Source: Lysobacter auxotrophicus
GTDB lineage: Bacteria; Pseudomonadota; Gammaproteobacteria; Xanthomonadales; Xanthomonadaceae
Direction: 5' to 3'
Length of the DNA stretch: 64,000 bases
NCBI RefSeq assembly: GCF_027924565.1
Contig: NZ_AP027041.1
Location: forward strand, 1,054,001 to 1,118,000
The position numbers and the translations under genes are program-made. The notes under the pieces are model-generated. The model saw nothing but the letters and a program-made list of their open reading frames with translations, did not search any database and was not told the origin of the DNA. Below, one piece after another: positions 49,381 to 55,234 of this stretch. The stretch's first letter is position 1, and every line of letters begins with the position of its first letter.

Positions 49381-50913
49381 ATGGACGACGCTTCCGCACC
49401 CCTGCAGGACTACCTCCGCGACGGCATCGTCGCGGGCGACCTGCCCGACCTGCATCCGCTGCTGTCCGCCCGCGACCTACTGCGCGCCTTCTCGACCCTG
49501 TTCCACGGCGGCGAGGAGAGCGTGATGGTGCGGCTGCTGGTGCTGCGCGCGATCGGCGAGCGCGGCGCCGCGCCGGACTGGAGCCCGCAGGAGCTGCGCG
49601 ACCACTTCGCCTACCTGGACCCGGTGAAGTTCGACACGGTCCTGGGCCGCCTGCGCGAGAACGACCTGCTGCGCTGGGACAACGACACGCAGCGCTATCG
49701 CATCAGCCCGGTCGGGCGGCAGGCGCTGTCGGCGATCGGCCTGCTGCTGCAGTTCAATCGCGAAGGCGACGAACTGGCCTACGTCACCGCGCAGCTCGCC
49801 GCCGGCCAGGCGGTCGGGCGCGTGCGCGGCGATGACCTGCAGCACCTGCTCTCGCGCCTCAACGAATACCGCGAGGACTTCGACCAGGCCGTGCTCAGCG
49901 GCTCCGAGCACCGCATCCAGCGCGCCGCCGGCACCTTGCAGCAGGTGTGGCAATGGGTGGAGAAGGGCACCGCGATCGTCAAGGAAATCGCGGCCGACGA
50001 AGAACTCGACGCCGCCACGCATCGCGTCGCGCAGCAGATCGGCCGCGCGCAGAGTTCGATGCTGCGCCAGGCGTCGGTGTTCCAGCGTGCGCTGAACCAG
50101 CTCGACCGCCATCGCGTGCATATCGGCGCAAGCGGTCTGTCGTCCTCCGACGTGAACCGTTACCTGCGCGGGCTCGATGGCGACGCGCTCGCCGCGCTGG
50201 CCGACGACGTGCTCGCGCGCGTGGTCGCGCCGGCCTTCATGCTGGCGCCGATCGCGCTGGACGTCGCCGAATACGAACTGGTCGAACGCGAACGCGAAGC
50301 GCAGGAAGACGCCTCGCTCCCGCCCGCGCAGGACGCTCCCGACGACACGCAGGCGCCCGTCGCCGAACAGGATTACGTGCACGCCGAGCAGTGGCTGTCG
50401 CAGCTGGCGTCGCTGGAACGCGATGCCGACACCGCGCTGTCGGACTGGGTGCCGCAGGACGGCTTCGCGGTCAGTGCGTACCGGTTGTCGCTGCTGGGGT
50501 TGATCGGCGACCCGGGCGCGGAGAATCGCAACGGCGTCAGCGCGTCGATCGCGCAGCTGCCCCTGCGCTGGAAGGTCGGCACGCAGTTCGAACCGGTCAA
50601 TCGCGCGGGCGTGGCGTACATGAGCCGGGCGTGGTTGACGGCGAAGGCGGATGACGACGTCGAGGCGCAGTCGCGCGACGTCGAGTCCGACGCGAACAAC
50701 GAAGGCATCGTCGAAGAGGGGCGCGGCGCGGCGCCGAGGATCAAAAAACCGTCATCCCGGCGAAAGCCGGGACCCAGGCCCGTAGCGCCTGAATCGTCCG
50801 CGACGTCCGATGTCGTCAGCCTGGATCCCGGCCTTCGCCGGGATGACGAGCAAGCGGAGACGGCCAAACCCAAGCGCAAGAAGAAAACCGCAACACCCAC
50901 GGAATCCCAATGA
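49381..50913 (+). CDS. Kleisin-like subunit of a condensin-like (MukF/MksF/JetA-type) complex
   Basis: The 510-residue product is the first of three overlapping genes that look like an SMC condensin complex. The N-terminus (about residues 30-120) forms a winged-helix-like region (LRDHFAYLDPVKFDTVLGRL, ENDLLRWDNDTQRYRI). The middle (120-300) is helical, and the rest carries acidic linkers and a basic lysine-rich tail. Position, size and pairing with a MukE-like and an SMC gene suggest the kleisin role. Residues about 457-490 are encoded by a 99-bp palindromic repeat. The start is ATG 49381; no strong ribosome binding site or promoter is seen. Direct homology to MukF or MksF cannot be shown by eye. 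Confidence 0.65.
   Translation: MDDASAPLQDYLRDGIVAGDLPDLHPLLSARDLLRAFSTLFHGGEESVMVRLLVLRAIGERGAAPDWSPQELRDHFAYLDPVKFDTVLGRLRENDLLRWDNDTQRYRISPVGRQALSAIGLLLQFNREGDELAYVTAQLAAGQAVGRVRGDDLQHLLSRLNEYREDFDQAVLSGSEHRIQRAAGTLQQVWQWVEKGTAIVKEIAADEELDAATHRVAQQIGRAQSSMLRQASVFQRALNQLDRHRVHIGASGLSSSDVNRYLRGLDGDALAALADDVLARVVAPAFMLAPIALDVAEYELVEREREAQEDASLPPAQDAPDDTQAPVAEQDYVHAEQWLSQLASLERDADTALSDWVPQDGFAVSAYRLSLLGLIGDPGAENRNGVSASIAQLPLRWKVGTQFEPVNRAGVAYMSRAWLTAKADDDVEAQSRDVESDANNEGIVEEGRGAAPRIKKPSSRRKPGPRPVAPESSATSDVVSLDPGLRRDDEQAETAKPKRKKKTATPTESQ
50750..50848 (+). repeat. In-frame palindromic repeat inside the kleisin-like gene
   Basis: A 30-base arm (50750-50779) is repeated inverted at 50819-50848 with two differences, each arm holding a small CCCGGC/GCCGGG hairpin. 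Total length is 99 bases, so the reading frame is kept. The left arm matches the element in the 37729 duplication. It is translated as a Pro/Arg-rich insert (SSRRKPGPRP ... DPGLRRDD). Confidence 0.85.
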
Positions 50914-51644
50914 GCGACCCCACCGCCACCCTCATCGCCCGCCTGCTCGCCGAGCGCTGGCTGCCGCGCGACGACCATGCGGTGCGCCAGGTCCTGGTCG
51001 ACGCCGAGCTGCGCGACGAACTCGATCGTCGCCTCGCCGGCGCCGGCCTGCGCCTGCTCGAGCATCCCTTCGCCGCGCACGTCGCCGTCGGCGTGGCGCG
51101 CTCGCAGGAGAACGACGTCTTCGGCAGCGCACGCGCATGGGCCGCGAGCAACCTGCAACTGGACCGCGATGCGCTCGCGCTGCTGGTCGTGCTGTGGTCG
51201 CTGCTGGTGCTGCCCAAACGCCAGCGCCAGATCGCGCGGCAGGAAAGCGAGCGCCAGCAGGACCAGGAGCAGATGTTCGCCGAACTCAAGCCAGTGCCGG
51301 TCGGGCAGGACATGGTCGAACCGATCAACGAACGCACGCTCATCGCCGACTTCGGCGACAAGCTCGGCGGCAAGTTCCGCATCAATCTGTCGCTGGGCGC
51401 ATTGCAGCGCCATGGGTTCATCGTGCGACGCAAGGAGCGCATCGCCGAAGGCCCGCTGCTTGATCTCGCCTTCGACTACGAACGCATCGCCAGCCGCGTG
51501 ATGGACGGCGCGCTGTCGTTCGTCGTCGAGCAGGCGCGTGCGACGCAGGCGGCGAACGCCGACCGCATCGACGACGACGCGTACGACGCGTACGACGCGA
51601 TCGACGAGAACGAAACCACCGAAGAGGCGCAGGCCGATGTTTGA
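50910..51644 (+). CDS. MukE/JetB-like small condensin subunit
   Basis: The 244-residue product overlaps the kleisin-like gene by 4 bases (ATGA). It is a mostly helical protein with a likely tandem winged-helix (kite) arrangement: residues about 10-100 and, after a Gln/Glu-rich helix (RQESERQQDQEQMFAEL), residues about 130-200 (LIADFGDKLGGKFRINLSLG, ALQRHGFI). The C-terminal tail is acidic. Synteny suggests the MukE/MksE/JetB role. No recognisable enzyme motif is seen. Confidence 0.6.
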   Translation: MSDPTATLIARLLAERWLPRDDHAVRQVLVDAELRDELDRRLAGAGLRLLEHPFAAHVAVGVARSQENDVFGSARAWAASNLQLDRDALALLVVLWSLLVLPKRQRQIARQESERQQDQEQMFAELKPVPVGQDMVEPINERTLIADFGDKLGGKFRINLSLGALQRHGFIVRRKERIAEGPLLDLAFDYERIASRVMDGALSFVVEQARATQAANADRIDDDAYDAYDAIDENETTEEAQADV

Positions 51645-54444
51645 GTTCCGCAGCCTGGAAGTCGTGCACTGGGATTACTGGCAGCGTTTCCAGCTGCCGC
51701 TCGACGCCTCGGTCATCACCGTCGTCGGTCCGAACGGTTCGGGCAAGACGACGCTGCTCGACGCGCTTCGTACGCTGCTTGCGATCGAAGACCGCGAGAC
51801 CGCGCGCGACTACAAGACCTACCTGCGCCACAACGGCAAGGGCCAGGCATGGCTGCGCGCGGTGGTGAGCAATCGCCCGGACCGCCGCGGCGGCCGCCCG
51901 TTCTTCCCGATCAAGGACGAGACCGTCACGCTTGCATGCCGCATCCGCAAGCGCGGCGGCGACTGGTCGCGCGATTACCAGATCCTCGCCGGCGACGTGC
52001 CGGTCGAACAGATCGAGCAGGGCGGCGAATGGCTCGGCGTGCGCGATTACCGCGTGCGCCTCGCCGGGGCCGGCCTCACGCGCGCCATCTGCCGCGTGCT
52101 CACGCTGGAGCAGGGCGCGACCGACAAGCTGTGCCAGCTTTCGCCGCGCGAATTGCTGCAGCTGGTGTTCGACGTGTTCGAGGACAAGGCCGTGCTGGAC
52201 GATTACCAGCGCGCCAAGTCCGAACAGATGGACGTCGAGAAGGAAATCGAGCAGCTGCGCCACGGCCTGGGCGAGCTGCATTTCAAGCTCGAATCCGCCC
52301 GCGTGGACGTGCGTTCGTTCGAGGAGGGCCAGGCGCTGCGCAACCAGCGTCAGCGACTGCAGGCGGAAATCGCGCCGAAGATCGAACTGGCCGACCTGCG
52401 CGCGACGCTGGAAGGCGCGCGTCCGCGCCTCACCGGCCTGCGCCGCGCGCTGCGCGAACGCGAGCGCGTGTTCGAAAACCTGCGCACGCGCGAGCACAAC
52501 GCCGTGGGCCAGCGCGACGACCTGCGCGCGGCGATCGAGCGCGCACGCGCCGATGTGCGTGCCTGCGAAACCGAATTCACCACCGCGCGCGATCACGCAC
52601 GCGATGCCGAGATGCTCGTGCGTCGTCGCGACGAACTCGCGCGCGTGCAGGCGCAGCGCGGTGCCGTCGACGTGGAGGCGCTCAGCCGCCGCGTCGAGGA
52701 AGGCCGTCGCCGTCAGGCCGAACTCAAGCTGGAAGCCGAGCGCGATCGCAATCGCACCGGTGAAATCGCCGCGCAGGTTGCCGCGCTCAGCGGCGGCGGC
52801 CGCATCGTCGAGCCGTTCGAGCGCGATTTCCGCACCGCGCTCGACAACGCGGGCATCGAACATCGCGTGCTCACCGAGCTGGTCGACATCGTCGATCCGA
52901 AGTGGTCGGTCGCCGTCGAAGCCGTGCTCGCGCCATATCGCCATCTCATCGTGCTGGAAAACCCGCGCGATGAAGGCGCGGCGTGGAAGCTCGGCGAGAA
53001 GATGCAGTACCGCCACTTCGTCGTATCCAACCGCACGCCGGTGGAAAAGGCGACGAAGGGCTCGCTGCTGGAAGTGGTGAAGTTCTCCGCCGAGCCGCCC
53101 GCGTGGTTGCCCAGGCAGCTCGACAAGATCCAGCGCGTCGAGGACATCGAGGACGGCCGTCGCCTGCCGAAGGGACAGGACTGGATCACGCTGAAGGGCT
53201 ACCTGCGCGAACATCGCGGCGGTCGCCATATCGGCGGTGGCGCGCCGCATTTCGGCACGGGCGCGCGACAGGCGCGTCTGGACGAATTGCGCGCCGAACA
53301 GATCGAGATCCAGCAGCGTGCGCACGCCCGCGAAGACGAACTGAGCGAGCTGGGCAAGCGTGTCGACGCCGAACAGGCGCGACTGCTGGGCCTGGATGCC
53401 GGACAGGAACTGGTGACGCGCGCGGCGGAATTCGCCGACGCCGCCGAACGCCTGCCCGCGATGGCGCAGGCCGCGCAGCAGGCGGCGATCGCGCTGTCGG
53501 ATGCGCGTTCGCGACTGGACGGCCTGGAAGCCGAAGACAAGGCCGAGAGCATCGCCGACGCCACGCGCGCGGGCGAGATCCGTTCGCTGGAGAATGAAGT
53601 GCGCGAACGCGCGCAGCAGATCGCGCAGGAACGCCAGCAGCTGGTGGCGCGCATCGTCGAGTTCCGTCGCAAGCGCGCGTTGATGCCGGCCGCGTGGCGC
53701 AGCGCCGACGCGTTGCACCAGGCGCGCGAGGAGTACGAAAGCGCCGGCGCGGTGCGTCGCGAACTCGAACGCATCGACGAACGCCTGCAACGCGGCGGAT
53801 ACATCGAGGACGACGGCTGCATCGCGCTTCGTGACAAGTTCGCCGCCGATCACGACGGGCTGGAATCGACCATCGGCAAGCGCGAGGCGCACCTGCATCG
53901 CGCGCGTCGCATCACCGAAGAAGCGCGCGGCGCATACATCAACGTGCTGCGCGCGACGGTGCGTCGCTACAAGAAGAACCTCGCGGCACTGGGCGAACTC
54001 GCCGGCATCGGCGTGGACGTCGAGATGCCCGAACTGGTGAACGAGGACGTCGCGCTCGCACAGGCCGGGTTGACCGTGAAGTTCGACTTCGACCGCAAGG
54101 GCTGGATCGGCCTGGACGACGGCGAGGCGTCGGGCGGCCAGCAGGTGATGAAGTCGTTGCTGCTGCTCGTCGGCCTGCTGCGCGACGAGGACCAGCCGGG
54201 CGGTTTCGTGTTCATCGACGAACCGTTCGCGCACCTGGACGTGTTCAACATCGAGAAGGTCGGCCGCTTCCTGCGCTCGACCGACGCGCAGTACATCCTG
54301 ACCACGCCGATCACGCACAACCTCAACGTGTTCGAGCCGTCCGACCTGGTGCTGGCGACGAGCAAGCGCCGCGGCGGCAATGCGTGGGCCGAGCCGGTGG
54401 CGGTGCTCAAGCGCGATCGTCGCGACGACGCGCAGGCCGCGTGA
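51637..54444 (+). CDS. Short SMC-like ATPase of a condensin-like system
   Basis: The 935-residue product has the full SMC head: Walker A GPNGSGKTT at residues 31-39, the ABC signature in DGEASGGQQVMKS near 831, Walker B GGFVFIDEP near 855-863, and a D-loop AHLD. Two long coiled-coil regions (about residues 180-380 and 550-790) flank a globular hinge-like region (about 385-540). At 935 residues it is shorter than canonical SMC (about 1170) and MukB (about 1480), and nearer to MksB/JetC. ATG 51637 overlaps the previous gene by 8 bases. DNA loop extrusion or plasmid defence is plausible; which one is not visible. Confidence 0.85.
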   Translation: MFEFRSLEVVHWDYWQRFQLPLDASVITVVGPNGSGKTTLLDALRTLLAIEDRETARDYKTYLRHNGKGQAWLRAVVSNRPDRRGGRPFFPIKDETVTLACRIRKRGGDWSRDYQILAGDVPVEQIEQGGEWLGVRDYRVRLAGAGLTRAICRVLTLEQGATDKLCQLSPRELLQLVFDVFEDKAVLDDYQRAKSEQMDVEKEIEQLRHGLGELHFKLESARVDVRSFEEGQALRNQRQRLQAEIAPKIELADLRATLEGARPRLTGLRRALRERERVFENLRTREHNAVGQRDDLRAAIERARADVRACETEFTTARDHARDAEMLVRRRDELARVQAQRGAVDVEALSRRVEEGRRRQAELKLEAERDRNRTGEIAAQVAALSGGGRIVEPFERDFRTALDNAGIEHRVLTELVDIVDPKWSVAVEAVLAPYRHLIVLENPRDEGAAWKLGEKMQYRHFVVSNRTPVEKATKGSLLEVVKFSAEPPAWLPRQLDKIQRVEDIEDGRRLPKGQDWITLKGYLREHRGGRHIGGGAPHFGTGARQARLDELRAEQIEIQQRAHAREDELSELGKRVDAEQARLLGLDAGQELVTRAAEFADAAERLPAMAQAAQQAAIALSDARSRLDGLEAEDKAESIADATRAGEIRSLENEVRERAQQIAQERQQLVARIVEFRRKRALMPAAWRSADALHQAREEYESAGAVRRELERIDERLQRGGYIEDDGCIALRDKFAADHDGLESTIGKREAHLHRARRITEEARGAYINVLRATVRRYKKNLAALGELAGIGVDVEMPELVNEDVALAQAGLTVKFDFDRKGWIGLDDGEASGGQQVMKSLLLLVGLLRDEDQPGGFVFIDEPFAHLDVFNIEKVGRFLRSTDAQYILTTPITHNLNVFEPSDLVLATSKRRGGNAWAEPVAVLKRDRRDDAQAA

Positions 54445-54454
54445 CGTCGCGCGC

Positions 54455-55234
54455 ATGAGCGCGGGCCGCCAGCAGATCGAACGCACGACGTACCGCAACC
54501 TCGCGGTGGTCGTGAAGCGCTGGCCCGGCGCGCCCGCGGATTTCTTCACCGCCGAGGCGACGGGACTGGCGACGCTCGCCGCCGCCGGTGCAATGCGTGT
54601 CCCGCGTGTGCTCGCGCTGGAACCCGAGCGGCTGGTGCTGGAGGATCTCGGCGAAGGCGTGCAGAAGGAACGCTTCTGGACGATCGCCGGCGAAGGCCTG
54701 GCCGCGCAGCATGCGCTGCGCAATGCGCGCTTTGGTTTCAAGCGCGACGGTTATTGCGGCCCCACGCCGCAGTCGAACGCATGGACGGACGACGGCTGGG
54801 CGTTCTTCGCCGAGCATCGCCTGCTGCCGCAGGCGCGGCGCGCGCTGGATGGCGGGCATCTGCCCAGCGATGACGTCGATGCGGTGGAGCGCGTGTGTTC
54901 GCGACTGCGCGAACTGATCCCGCCGCAGCGGGCGTCGCTGCTGCACGGCGATCTGTGGATGGGCAATCTGCATTGCTGTGCCGACGGTTCGCCCGCGCTG
55001 ATCGATGCGGGTGCGGTGCACTACGGATGGCCCGAGTCGGAGCTCGCGATGCTGACGCTGTTCGGCTCGCCACCCGACGCGTTCTGGCGCGCGTACGGCG
55101 CGCATGCGGTCGTGGCGAGCGACTGGCGCGAACGCGCGCCGGTCTACAACCTCTACCACCTTCTCAATCATCTGAATCTGTTCGGTGGAAGTTATCGTGC
55201 GGGTGTGCGTGAGGTGTTGGAACGATTCGGGTAA
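54455..55234 (+). CDS. Fructosamine kinase family protein
   Basis: The 259-residue product belongs to the fructosamine-3-kinase/YniA family, with the protein-kinase-like motifs SLLHGDLWMGNL (catalytic Asp) and LIDAGAVHYGWPESELAML (metal-binding Asp). YniA-type kinases phosphorylate glycated amines or small sugars. The gene starts 10 bases after the SMC stop, so it is probably co-transcribed, but no functional link to DNA organisation is known. An aminoglycoside phosphotransferase is less likely because of the family-specific ending (NLYHLLNHLNLFGGSY). Confidence 0.85.
   Translation: MSAGRQQIERTTYRNLAVVVKRWPGAPADFFTAEATGLATLAAAGAMRVPRVLALEPERLVLEDLGEGVQKERFWTIAGEGLAAQHALRNARFGFKRDGYCGPTPQSNAWTDDGWAFFAEHRLLPQARRALDGGHLPSDDVDAVERVCSRLRELIPPQRASLLHGDLWMGNLHCCADGSPALIDAGAVHYGWPESELAMLTLFGSPPDAFWRAYGAHAVVASDWRERAPVYNLYHLLNHLNLFGGSYRAGVREVLERFG

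Follow-up and report, generated by a model that had tools for sequence, protein, structure and literature searches.

A nuclease-free JetABC-type SMC operon in Lysobacter auxotrophicus, with nuclease-bearing relatives at the same chromosomal site: a candidate accessory condensin

What does a condensin-like complex of the anti-plasmid Wadjet type do when the gene for its nuclease is missing? The question is raised by a three-gene operon of the soil bacterium Lysobacter auxotrophicus, located in a 64,000-nucleotide stretch of its chromosome (the window; contig NZ_AP027041.1, positions 1,054,001 to 1,118,000, or G000:C1:1054001-1118000) in a single-contig genome of 4,155,451 bp. The genes encode a kleisin-like protein, a small kite-like protein and an SMC (structural maintenance of chromosomes) ATPase. 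An initial annotation, made from the sequence alone, had described overlaps of 4 and 8 bases between them, an SMC of 935 residues, a fructosamine-kinase-family gene 10 bases on and the lack of a nuclease-like frame in the window. The coordinates agree with this layout (Table 1): the kleisin and kite frames overlap by 4 bp and the kite and SMC frames by 8 bp, while the fructosamine-kinase (FN3K) gene, whose product matches PF03881 (E 3e-53), begins 10 bases beyond the SMC stop. Sequence comparison places the trio in a divergent lineage akin to type I Wadjet/MksBEFG. We consider it probable, on balance, that the locus is a JetABC-type core that lost its nuclease and has been retained in the role of an accessory, condensin-like loop extruder. 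Support is good for its identity and nuclease status; for the condensin-like function, we argue by analogy and from constraint.

The three subunits differ in how readily they are recognized. The SMC exceeds the family cut-off of Pfam SMC_N (E 4e-15) and scores 71 bits against the PADLOC JetC1 models, and residues 347-593 of its profile align with the Smc entry 4rsj (E 2.6e-4), a segment that we take to be the hinge region. For the kleisin and the kite, no Pfam family is matched over its cut-off by the single sequences, and sequence searches against solved structures returned nothing convincing; even with 26 homologues, the kleisin has no Pfam match over cut-off, and the PADLOC JetA models are matched by none of the 26. 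Likewise, no member of the trio matches ScpA or ScpB over cut-off (one kite homologue touched ScpA at E 0.29). Mean column identity among 26 homologues each is 49% for the kleisin, 47% for the kite and 62% for the SMC.

Predicted structures point to assignments for the two smaller proteins. In a Foldseek search with the AlphaFold model of the kleisin (pLDDT 70.6, pTM 0.43), the top 12 matches are all MukF or MukF-containing complexes, albeit with a best E of 0.006, none below 0.001, and TM-scores of 0.14-0.23. The kite model gives three matches at E ≤ 0.001 (1.2e-4 to 6.5e-4), all to chains of Wadjet JetABC structures, which by their length would be JetB. In sequence searches, DUF4194 is touched by 9 of the 26 kite homologues at E ≤ 1 (best 1.8e-4), and JetB3 matches the kite weakly (E 0.03). 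The earlier reading as kleisin, kite and SMC thus holds for the SMC and for a JetB-like kite, while a MukF/JetA-like kleisin is suggested by a weak fold resemblance; mainly because gene order and predicted fold agree, we regard the 510-residue protein as likely to be the kleisin.

To place the trio among its relatives, we used a pattern-based scan of a genome collection covering 84,980 species, which gave 114 SMC relatives. The best 80 of these were kept; as they were chosen with the window protein as query, near kin are over-represented. Kleisin, kite and SMC are all matched in the same order in 76 of the 80 loci, and the remaining four (L075, L083, L096, L100) start within the operon, so that this arrangement is far beyond chance. 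The overlaps recur as well: kleisin and kite overlap by 4, 8 or 11 bp in 67 of the 73 loci in which both were called, kite and SMC by 8 bp in 60 of 75. The kleisin is present in 27 of 197 family genomes, two of which (G014, G094) are less than 90% complete; five more that matched solely via short or repeat-peptide stretches were not counted. Its profile matched 4 of 369 genomes of the class (G368 weakly), and the family is therefore rare in the class at large. A plasmid collection searched with the kleisin gave no match. A plasmid search with the SMC as query gave two Variovorax megaplasmids (L128, L129) with SMC fragments of the trio's family, which in both adjoin IS1071 transposase genes; in one of them, a JetD-like gene comes after the fragment, followed by an exonuclease VII pair.

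The relatives fall into two states. Three loci (L067, L091, L107) stop too early for the slot behind the SMC to be judged. Among the 77 determinable loci, 23 have a JetD-type Toprim gene of about 400 codons directly 3' of the SMC gene, and 54 do not. With start codons chosen by script, this gene overlaps the SMC stop by 1-26 bp in 19 of the 23, abuts it in one and starts 3 bp later in three. The motifs ENRTSFE and CDPxPAG, presumably holding the Toprim acidic residues, occur in 22 of 22 complete genes; in L099, the CDPDPAG sequence has H in place of D. The alignment has 23 members (from 22 loci, plus one Variovorax plasmid gene), and every one matches the PADLOC JetD1 models (best 1.3e-18), in the one member inspected over its C-terminal half; at E ≤ 1, Pfam JetD_C is touched by 4 and DUF2399 by 10 of them, and a Protein Data Bank search with the alignment yielded nothing useful. 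The gene is found in 17 of 19 determinable betaproteobacterial-type loci (all 20 loci of this type are metagenome-assembled genomes (MAGs) or environmental bins by title) versus 6 of 58 in Xanthomonadales, and one nuclease-bearing locus belongs to a Lysobacter whose SMC is 95% identical to that of the window. The initial annotation had named a close JetD/MksG homologue in related genomes as the finding that would speak against its view: such a gene stands in 23 of the 77 loci, the close Lysobacter included, and is missing from the other 54. A nuclease-free trio with a kinase as its native design is thus unsupported, because some near relatives have a JetD-type gene next in line and adjacency to FN3K is confined to one lineage.

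Among the four-gene loci, seven (L086, L087, L092, L094, L095, L097, L099) lie between proA-like and aceF-like genes, as named by eye; in betaproteobacterial MAGs, these flanks mark a fixed chromosomal site, which is unusual for defence systems. Two of the seven, L094 and L097, come from MAGs titled Bordetella parapertussis that cluster with other betaproteobacterial MAGs, and their labels look doubtful.

For the window, the lack of a nuclease-like frame holds for the JetD type: 14 JetD-like queries found no match at E 1e-3, a search that covered this type alone and did not survey other kinds of nuclease. Nor does the whole genome (4.16 Mb) contain a match to JetD_C or to the profile of the operon JetD-like proteins; as a positive control, JetD_C matched one of 14 named genomes, that of C. 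glutamicum. Among the 27 operon-bearing family genomes, a cognate JetD is present in 4, JetD_C in 3 others and neither in 20, and JetD_C is not enriched with the operon (3/27 versus 34/170, Fisher p 0.43). A nuclease encoded elsewhere, as considered at the outset, is therefore disfavoured as far as JetD types are concerned, and we dropped JetD acting in trans.

Both states occupy one chromosomal site. In the clade of the window (Lysobacter, Pseudoxanthomonas, Luteimonas and Vulcaniibacterium; 34 loci in the tree), all 32 loci that were scanned have an FMN-oxidoreductase gene upstream of the kleisin, and five of the 32 are nuclease-bearing; L042 and L048, in which the kleisin was not called, were omitted. 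On the other side, shared downstream sequence restarts 75 bp and 144 bp past the SMC stop in the nuclease-free loci L056 and L057, and 51 bp and 13 bp past the nuclease stop in their nuclease-bearing partners L055 and L054. The same flank colinearity is seen for L068 and L090 against L062, while the pairs L050/L085, L043/L036 and L061/L062 are less clean.

The nuclease state has changed repeatedly, at least five times within Xanthomonadales (with L067 scored absent) and at least seven times on the wider tree. Seven changes also remain if L067, L107 and one outgroup are not counted, or if no outgroup is counted, and a strict loss-only count comes to 14. The SMC trees were made by a quick method under a single-matrix model; on the wider tree the outgroup is not monophyletic, which leaves the direction of loss and gain unsettled. 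A four-gene ancestor is nevertheless likely, since the type I Wadjet locus L159 has JetD at the same position. For the lineage of the window, a simple single loss was rejected on two grounds, an identity break between L031 and L033 and the FN3K adjacency shared by kin. In 200-bp windows, L031 and L033 are 90-100% identical over the first ~3.8 kb except for the kleisin tail (72-80%), and 72-93% thereafter, with the drop at about SMC residue 515-560; over the same last part, the window and L031 are 89-98% identical. FN3K adjacency is common to the window, L031, L032, L034, L058 and L045. As its close kin share FN3K in the slot, L033 more likely gained its nuclease, and the identity pattern suggests a probable regain by recombination. 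Relative to the SMC, the nuclease diverges faster in Xanthomonadales (L062 left out: SMC 73-79%, nuclease 48-56% identity) than in the betaproteobacterial clade (SMC 72-79%, nuclease 62-74%).

Where the nuclease is missing, the trio is still conserved, and purifying selection acts on it. Among the 57 loci without a detected nuclease, three of which end too early to judge, 55 have an SMC read from start to stop, which has its full length in 54 cases. Walker A is retained in 55/55, the signature in 54/55 and Walker B in 54/55; the exception, L078, is a MAG whose SMC frame ends at 612 residues. For L042 and L048, the part of the kleisin frame that was read is open, and the script found no usual start codon. 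The ratio of non-synonymous to synonymous substitution rates (dN/dS) of the SMC is 0.026-0.114 in 16 nuclease-less pairs versus 0.065-0.148 in six four-gene pairs, not all of which are independent; constraint on the SMC is thus no weaker in the nuclease-less pairs, where the corresponding ranges are 0.025-0.296 for the kleisin and 0-0.267 for the kite.

How does the locus compare with known SMC systems? With type I Wadjet (JetABCD) and MksBEFG it shares the kleisin-kite-SMC order, overlapping genes, a JetB-like kite fold and a JetC-like SMC, and its four-gene relatives alone share the JetD-type Toprim protein in fourth place. It differs in that the genome has no JetD, the kleisin matches no JetA model and the kite matches JetB weakly, and the SMC has 935 residues versus about 1140 in the JetC of L159, typed JetA1/B1/C1/D1. 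The window SMC profile recognizes this type I JetC with 61.8 bits, four other Wadjet-like SMCs with 16-27 bits, and, of three MksB-type SMCs, two with 15.1 and 1.4 bits and the third not at all. Given these scores, the contrast with MksB depends chiefly on L159; the MksB-type loci were assigned by SMC length and an MksE-like neighbour, and the named Pseudomonas aeruginosa MksB is not among them. Likewise, the JetD profile recognizes the JetD of L159 (55.6 bits) and no other JetD of the comparison set. From the MukBEF of E. coli, whose MukF the kleisin model weakly resembles, the locus is set apart by its far shorter SMC (the NCBIfam MukB model has 1486 positions); the Pfam MukB model scores 17.2 bits against it, under the 23-bit cut-off, and no MukE or MukF model is matched with 26 homologues. 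The genome also has a ScpA gene (G000:C1:1615301, 0.5 Mb from the trio), so that the cell probably also has an SMC-ScpAB condensin, a statement resting on ScpA, as ScpB was not searched for.

Similar in gene content is the MksBEF of P. aeruginosa, three genes without a JetD-type nuclease, for which a chromosome role is reported (PMC7485682). The locus might then simply be an ordinary catalogued MksBEF of the Pseudomonas type. The SMCs of the three MksB-type loci (L155-L157) are of similar length (917-943 residues), L155 has three genes and no visible nuclease frame, and published MksBEF families are diverse, according to the same source. However, the MksE model PF21980 has no match in the genome at E 0.001 (it also matches E. 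coli and C. glutamicum), and the SMC profile barely recognizes the MksB-type SMCs, although the named P. aeruginosa proteins were not compared. For these two reasons, the locus looks like a case of nuclease loss separate from that of MksBEF, and identity with the Pseudomonas type, rejected on the weak SMC scores, is highly improbable. Only L155 of the three looks nuclease-free, because in L156 and L157 a frame with a Toprim-like pattern overlaps the SMC end, possibly a nuclease of another kind.

What would the trio then do? In the mechanism that we propose, an SMC dimer, the kleisin and the kite would form a JetABC-type complex from whose operon the cognate JetD (MksG-type Toprim) gene was lost and, it appears, at least once regained. 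The complex would still load on DNA, with ATP hydrolysis driving loop extrusion; without JetD, it should be unable to cut plasmids, and it may have been retained as an accessory organizer of chromosomal or plasmid DNA, as is reported for P. aeruginosa MksBEF. Nuclease-free members of the lineage may work like MksBEF without being its orthologues.

Several observations weigh against this reading. Its JetC-like identity is qualified by the MADS protein mad3, which scores 70.5 bits, nearly equal to JetC1, and by the general SMC_prok_B model, which scores higher (106 bits), though far under its 567-bit cut-off. Fold similarity is weak (TM-scores 0.14-0.41, from models near pLDDT 70), and the kleisin and kite profiles recognized no comparison Wadjet or MksBEF protein significantly. 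Given its presence in 27 of 197 family genomes, the operon is accessory rather than housekeeping. Three genomes of the same genus without it have an empty site, with 998, 1,801 and 2,141 bp between flanking genes that are 7,713, 7,720 and 8,261 bp apart in the operon-bearing G000, G129 and G045; the site has therefore also seen loss or gain of the whole block. Nor is it settled in which order losses and gains of the nuclease came, L033 looking like a regain by recombination. Finally, defence by DNA compaction without cutting, or with an unrelated nuclease, predicts identical sequence signals.

This last point concerns the most serious rival, a nuclease-less or trans-acting defence system in which the trio would recognize plasmid or phage DNA and would then either silence or compact it without cutting or bring in an unrelated nuclease from another locus. 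Defence genes typically show such a patchy presence, with sites left empty in sister genomes, and a nuclease that toggles through at least seven state changes fits the same picture; against it stand the lack of JetD_C and of a cognate JetD in the genome, the missing enrichment of JetD_C with the operon, and metabolic flanks without a credible PADLOC defence match. Between the two, we favour the condensin and regard nuclease-less defence as doubtful, though a real possibility. Neither do the data favour a decaying Wadjet remnant: the effector is missing and the SMC of L078 is truncated, yet full-length frames with intact motifs at 54 of 55 loci and SMC dN/dS of 0.026-0.114 in 16/16 pairs make decay improbable.

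The neighbouring kinase gene invites a further alternative, in which the slot past the SMC holds interchangeable effectors, a nuclease in some lineages and an FN3K-family kinase in Lysobacter. In the genus of the window, FN3K occurs in 4/4 sampled genomes with a nuclease-less trio (G000, G045, G078, G148) and in 0/4 others; across the family, it occurs in 9/27 genomes with the trio versus 11/170 without (p 0.0003, uncorrected for kinship). Counted from the final base of the SMC stop, its start lies between 3 bp upstream and 11 bp downstream in five relative loci. These five of 80 loci, and four of 197 family genomes by coordinates, are however the only ones in which it adjoins the SMC, and all belong to one Lysobacter lineage, on which grounds we dropped the pairing as a general rule. 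Elsewhere, FN3K lies 6.4 kb off (L050), several kb off (G052) or on other contigs. No FN3K was seen beside the SMC in 52 of the 57 loci that lack a detected JetD-type gene (some flanks being cut), and the enzyme family also occurs in the 11 genomes that lack the trio. The FN3K gene is thus most likely a local neighbour and not a subunit, and interchangeable effectors are rather improbable. A broader view, which we hold to be unlikely but less so, takes the JetABC-type extruder as the primary, long-lived machine with a plug-in last slot; nuclease-bearing and nuclease-free alleles would recombine with each other at the SMC gene's 3' end. If it were true, JetD would make the complex a plasmid defence, loss of JetD a condensin, and the FN3K of Lysobacter would be a different effector or a modifier.

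If the locus is indeed a JetABC-type core retained as a condensin-like extruder, it may be an example of a defence system on its way to becoming a chromosome-organizing one, since close relatives keep the nuclease at the same spot. Close relatives, with SMCs 95% identical, carry either state at a single chromosomal site, and the state has switched several times; such loci offer matched natural pairs for studying the role of a Wadjet core that has lost its nuclease. The published idea that MksBEF and MukBEF arose from Wadjet by loss of JetD thereby becomes testable, while the four-gene relatives represent a Wadjet-related lineage whose kleisin and kite escape the JetA and JetB models of PADLOC 2.0.0. 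In a review, MksBEF and perhaps MukBEF are proposed to be former defence systems after JetD loss, with relationships called unresolved (PMC10586767). In the open full-text literature, we found no paper joining Wadjet or MksB with Lysobacter and, among the matches listed for Wadjet, MukBEF and nuclease loss, no title on the clade of the window. The founding MksBEF paper of 2011, absent from these search results, could include sequences of this clade.

The features of the locus are collected in Table 1. By SMC identity, the closest named relatives are Lysobacter soli (98%), L. arvi (97%) and L. changpingensis (95%). Across the L. soli group, the kleisin varies in length from 480 to 519 residues.

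Table 1. Features of the SMC operon and its 3' neighbour, numbered from the first base of the window
Feature	Position	Strand	Remarks
Kleisin-like gene (JetA/MukF-like)	49381..50913	+	510 aa; N-terminal winged-helix-like region, long helices, smaller C-terminal region, disordered tail
Kleisin tail segment, aa 444-492	50710..50856	+	Dispersed repeat peptide SRRKPGP...LDPGLRRDD; same stretch recurs in own and sister genomes
Kite-like gene (JetB/MukE-like)	50910..51644	+	244 aa
SMC ATPase gene (JetC-like)	51637..54444	+	935 aa
SMC Walker A GPNGSGKTT, aa 31-39	51727..51753	+	Invariant among 26 homologues
SMC ABC signature SGGQQ, aa 832-836	54130..54144	+	Alignment of 26 homologues
SMC Walker B/D-loop FVFIDEPFAHLD, aa 857-868	54205..54240	+	Alignment of 26 homologues
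10-bp gap past SMC stop	54445..54454	+	Slot where the JetD-type gene starts in 23 relative loci; vacant of JetD here
Fructosamine-kinase (FN3K) family gene	54455..55234	+	259 aa; PF03881; SMC-adjacent only within a Lysobacter lineage

The surroundings of the operon are metabolic, with genes for a TonB receptor, an FMN oxidoreductase, a zinc alcohol dehydrogenase, an aldo/keto reductase and a LigB-type dioxygenase. In a PADLOC scan of six flanking frames, five had no match and the sixth matched weakly over its NAD(P)/FAD-binding motif stretch; two of the six are without any Pfam match and are perhaps not genes. Other neighbours recur behind the SMC elsewhere. In the Lysobacter antibioticus/enzymogenes group (L037, L039, L041, L044, L047, L063), a gene that by eye is EF-G-like lies about 0.5-1.2 kb past it, and the Tahibacter-like loci L061, L062, L068, L090 and L109 have a gene of about 200 codons shortly past the SMC or past the nuclease, which looks like one for a DUF938 methyltransferase.

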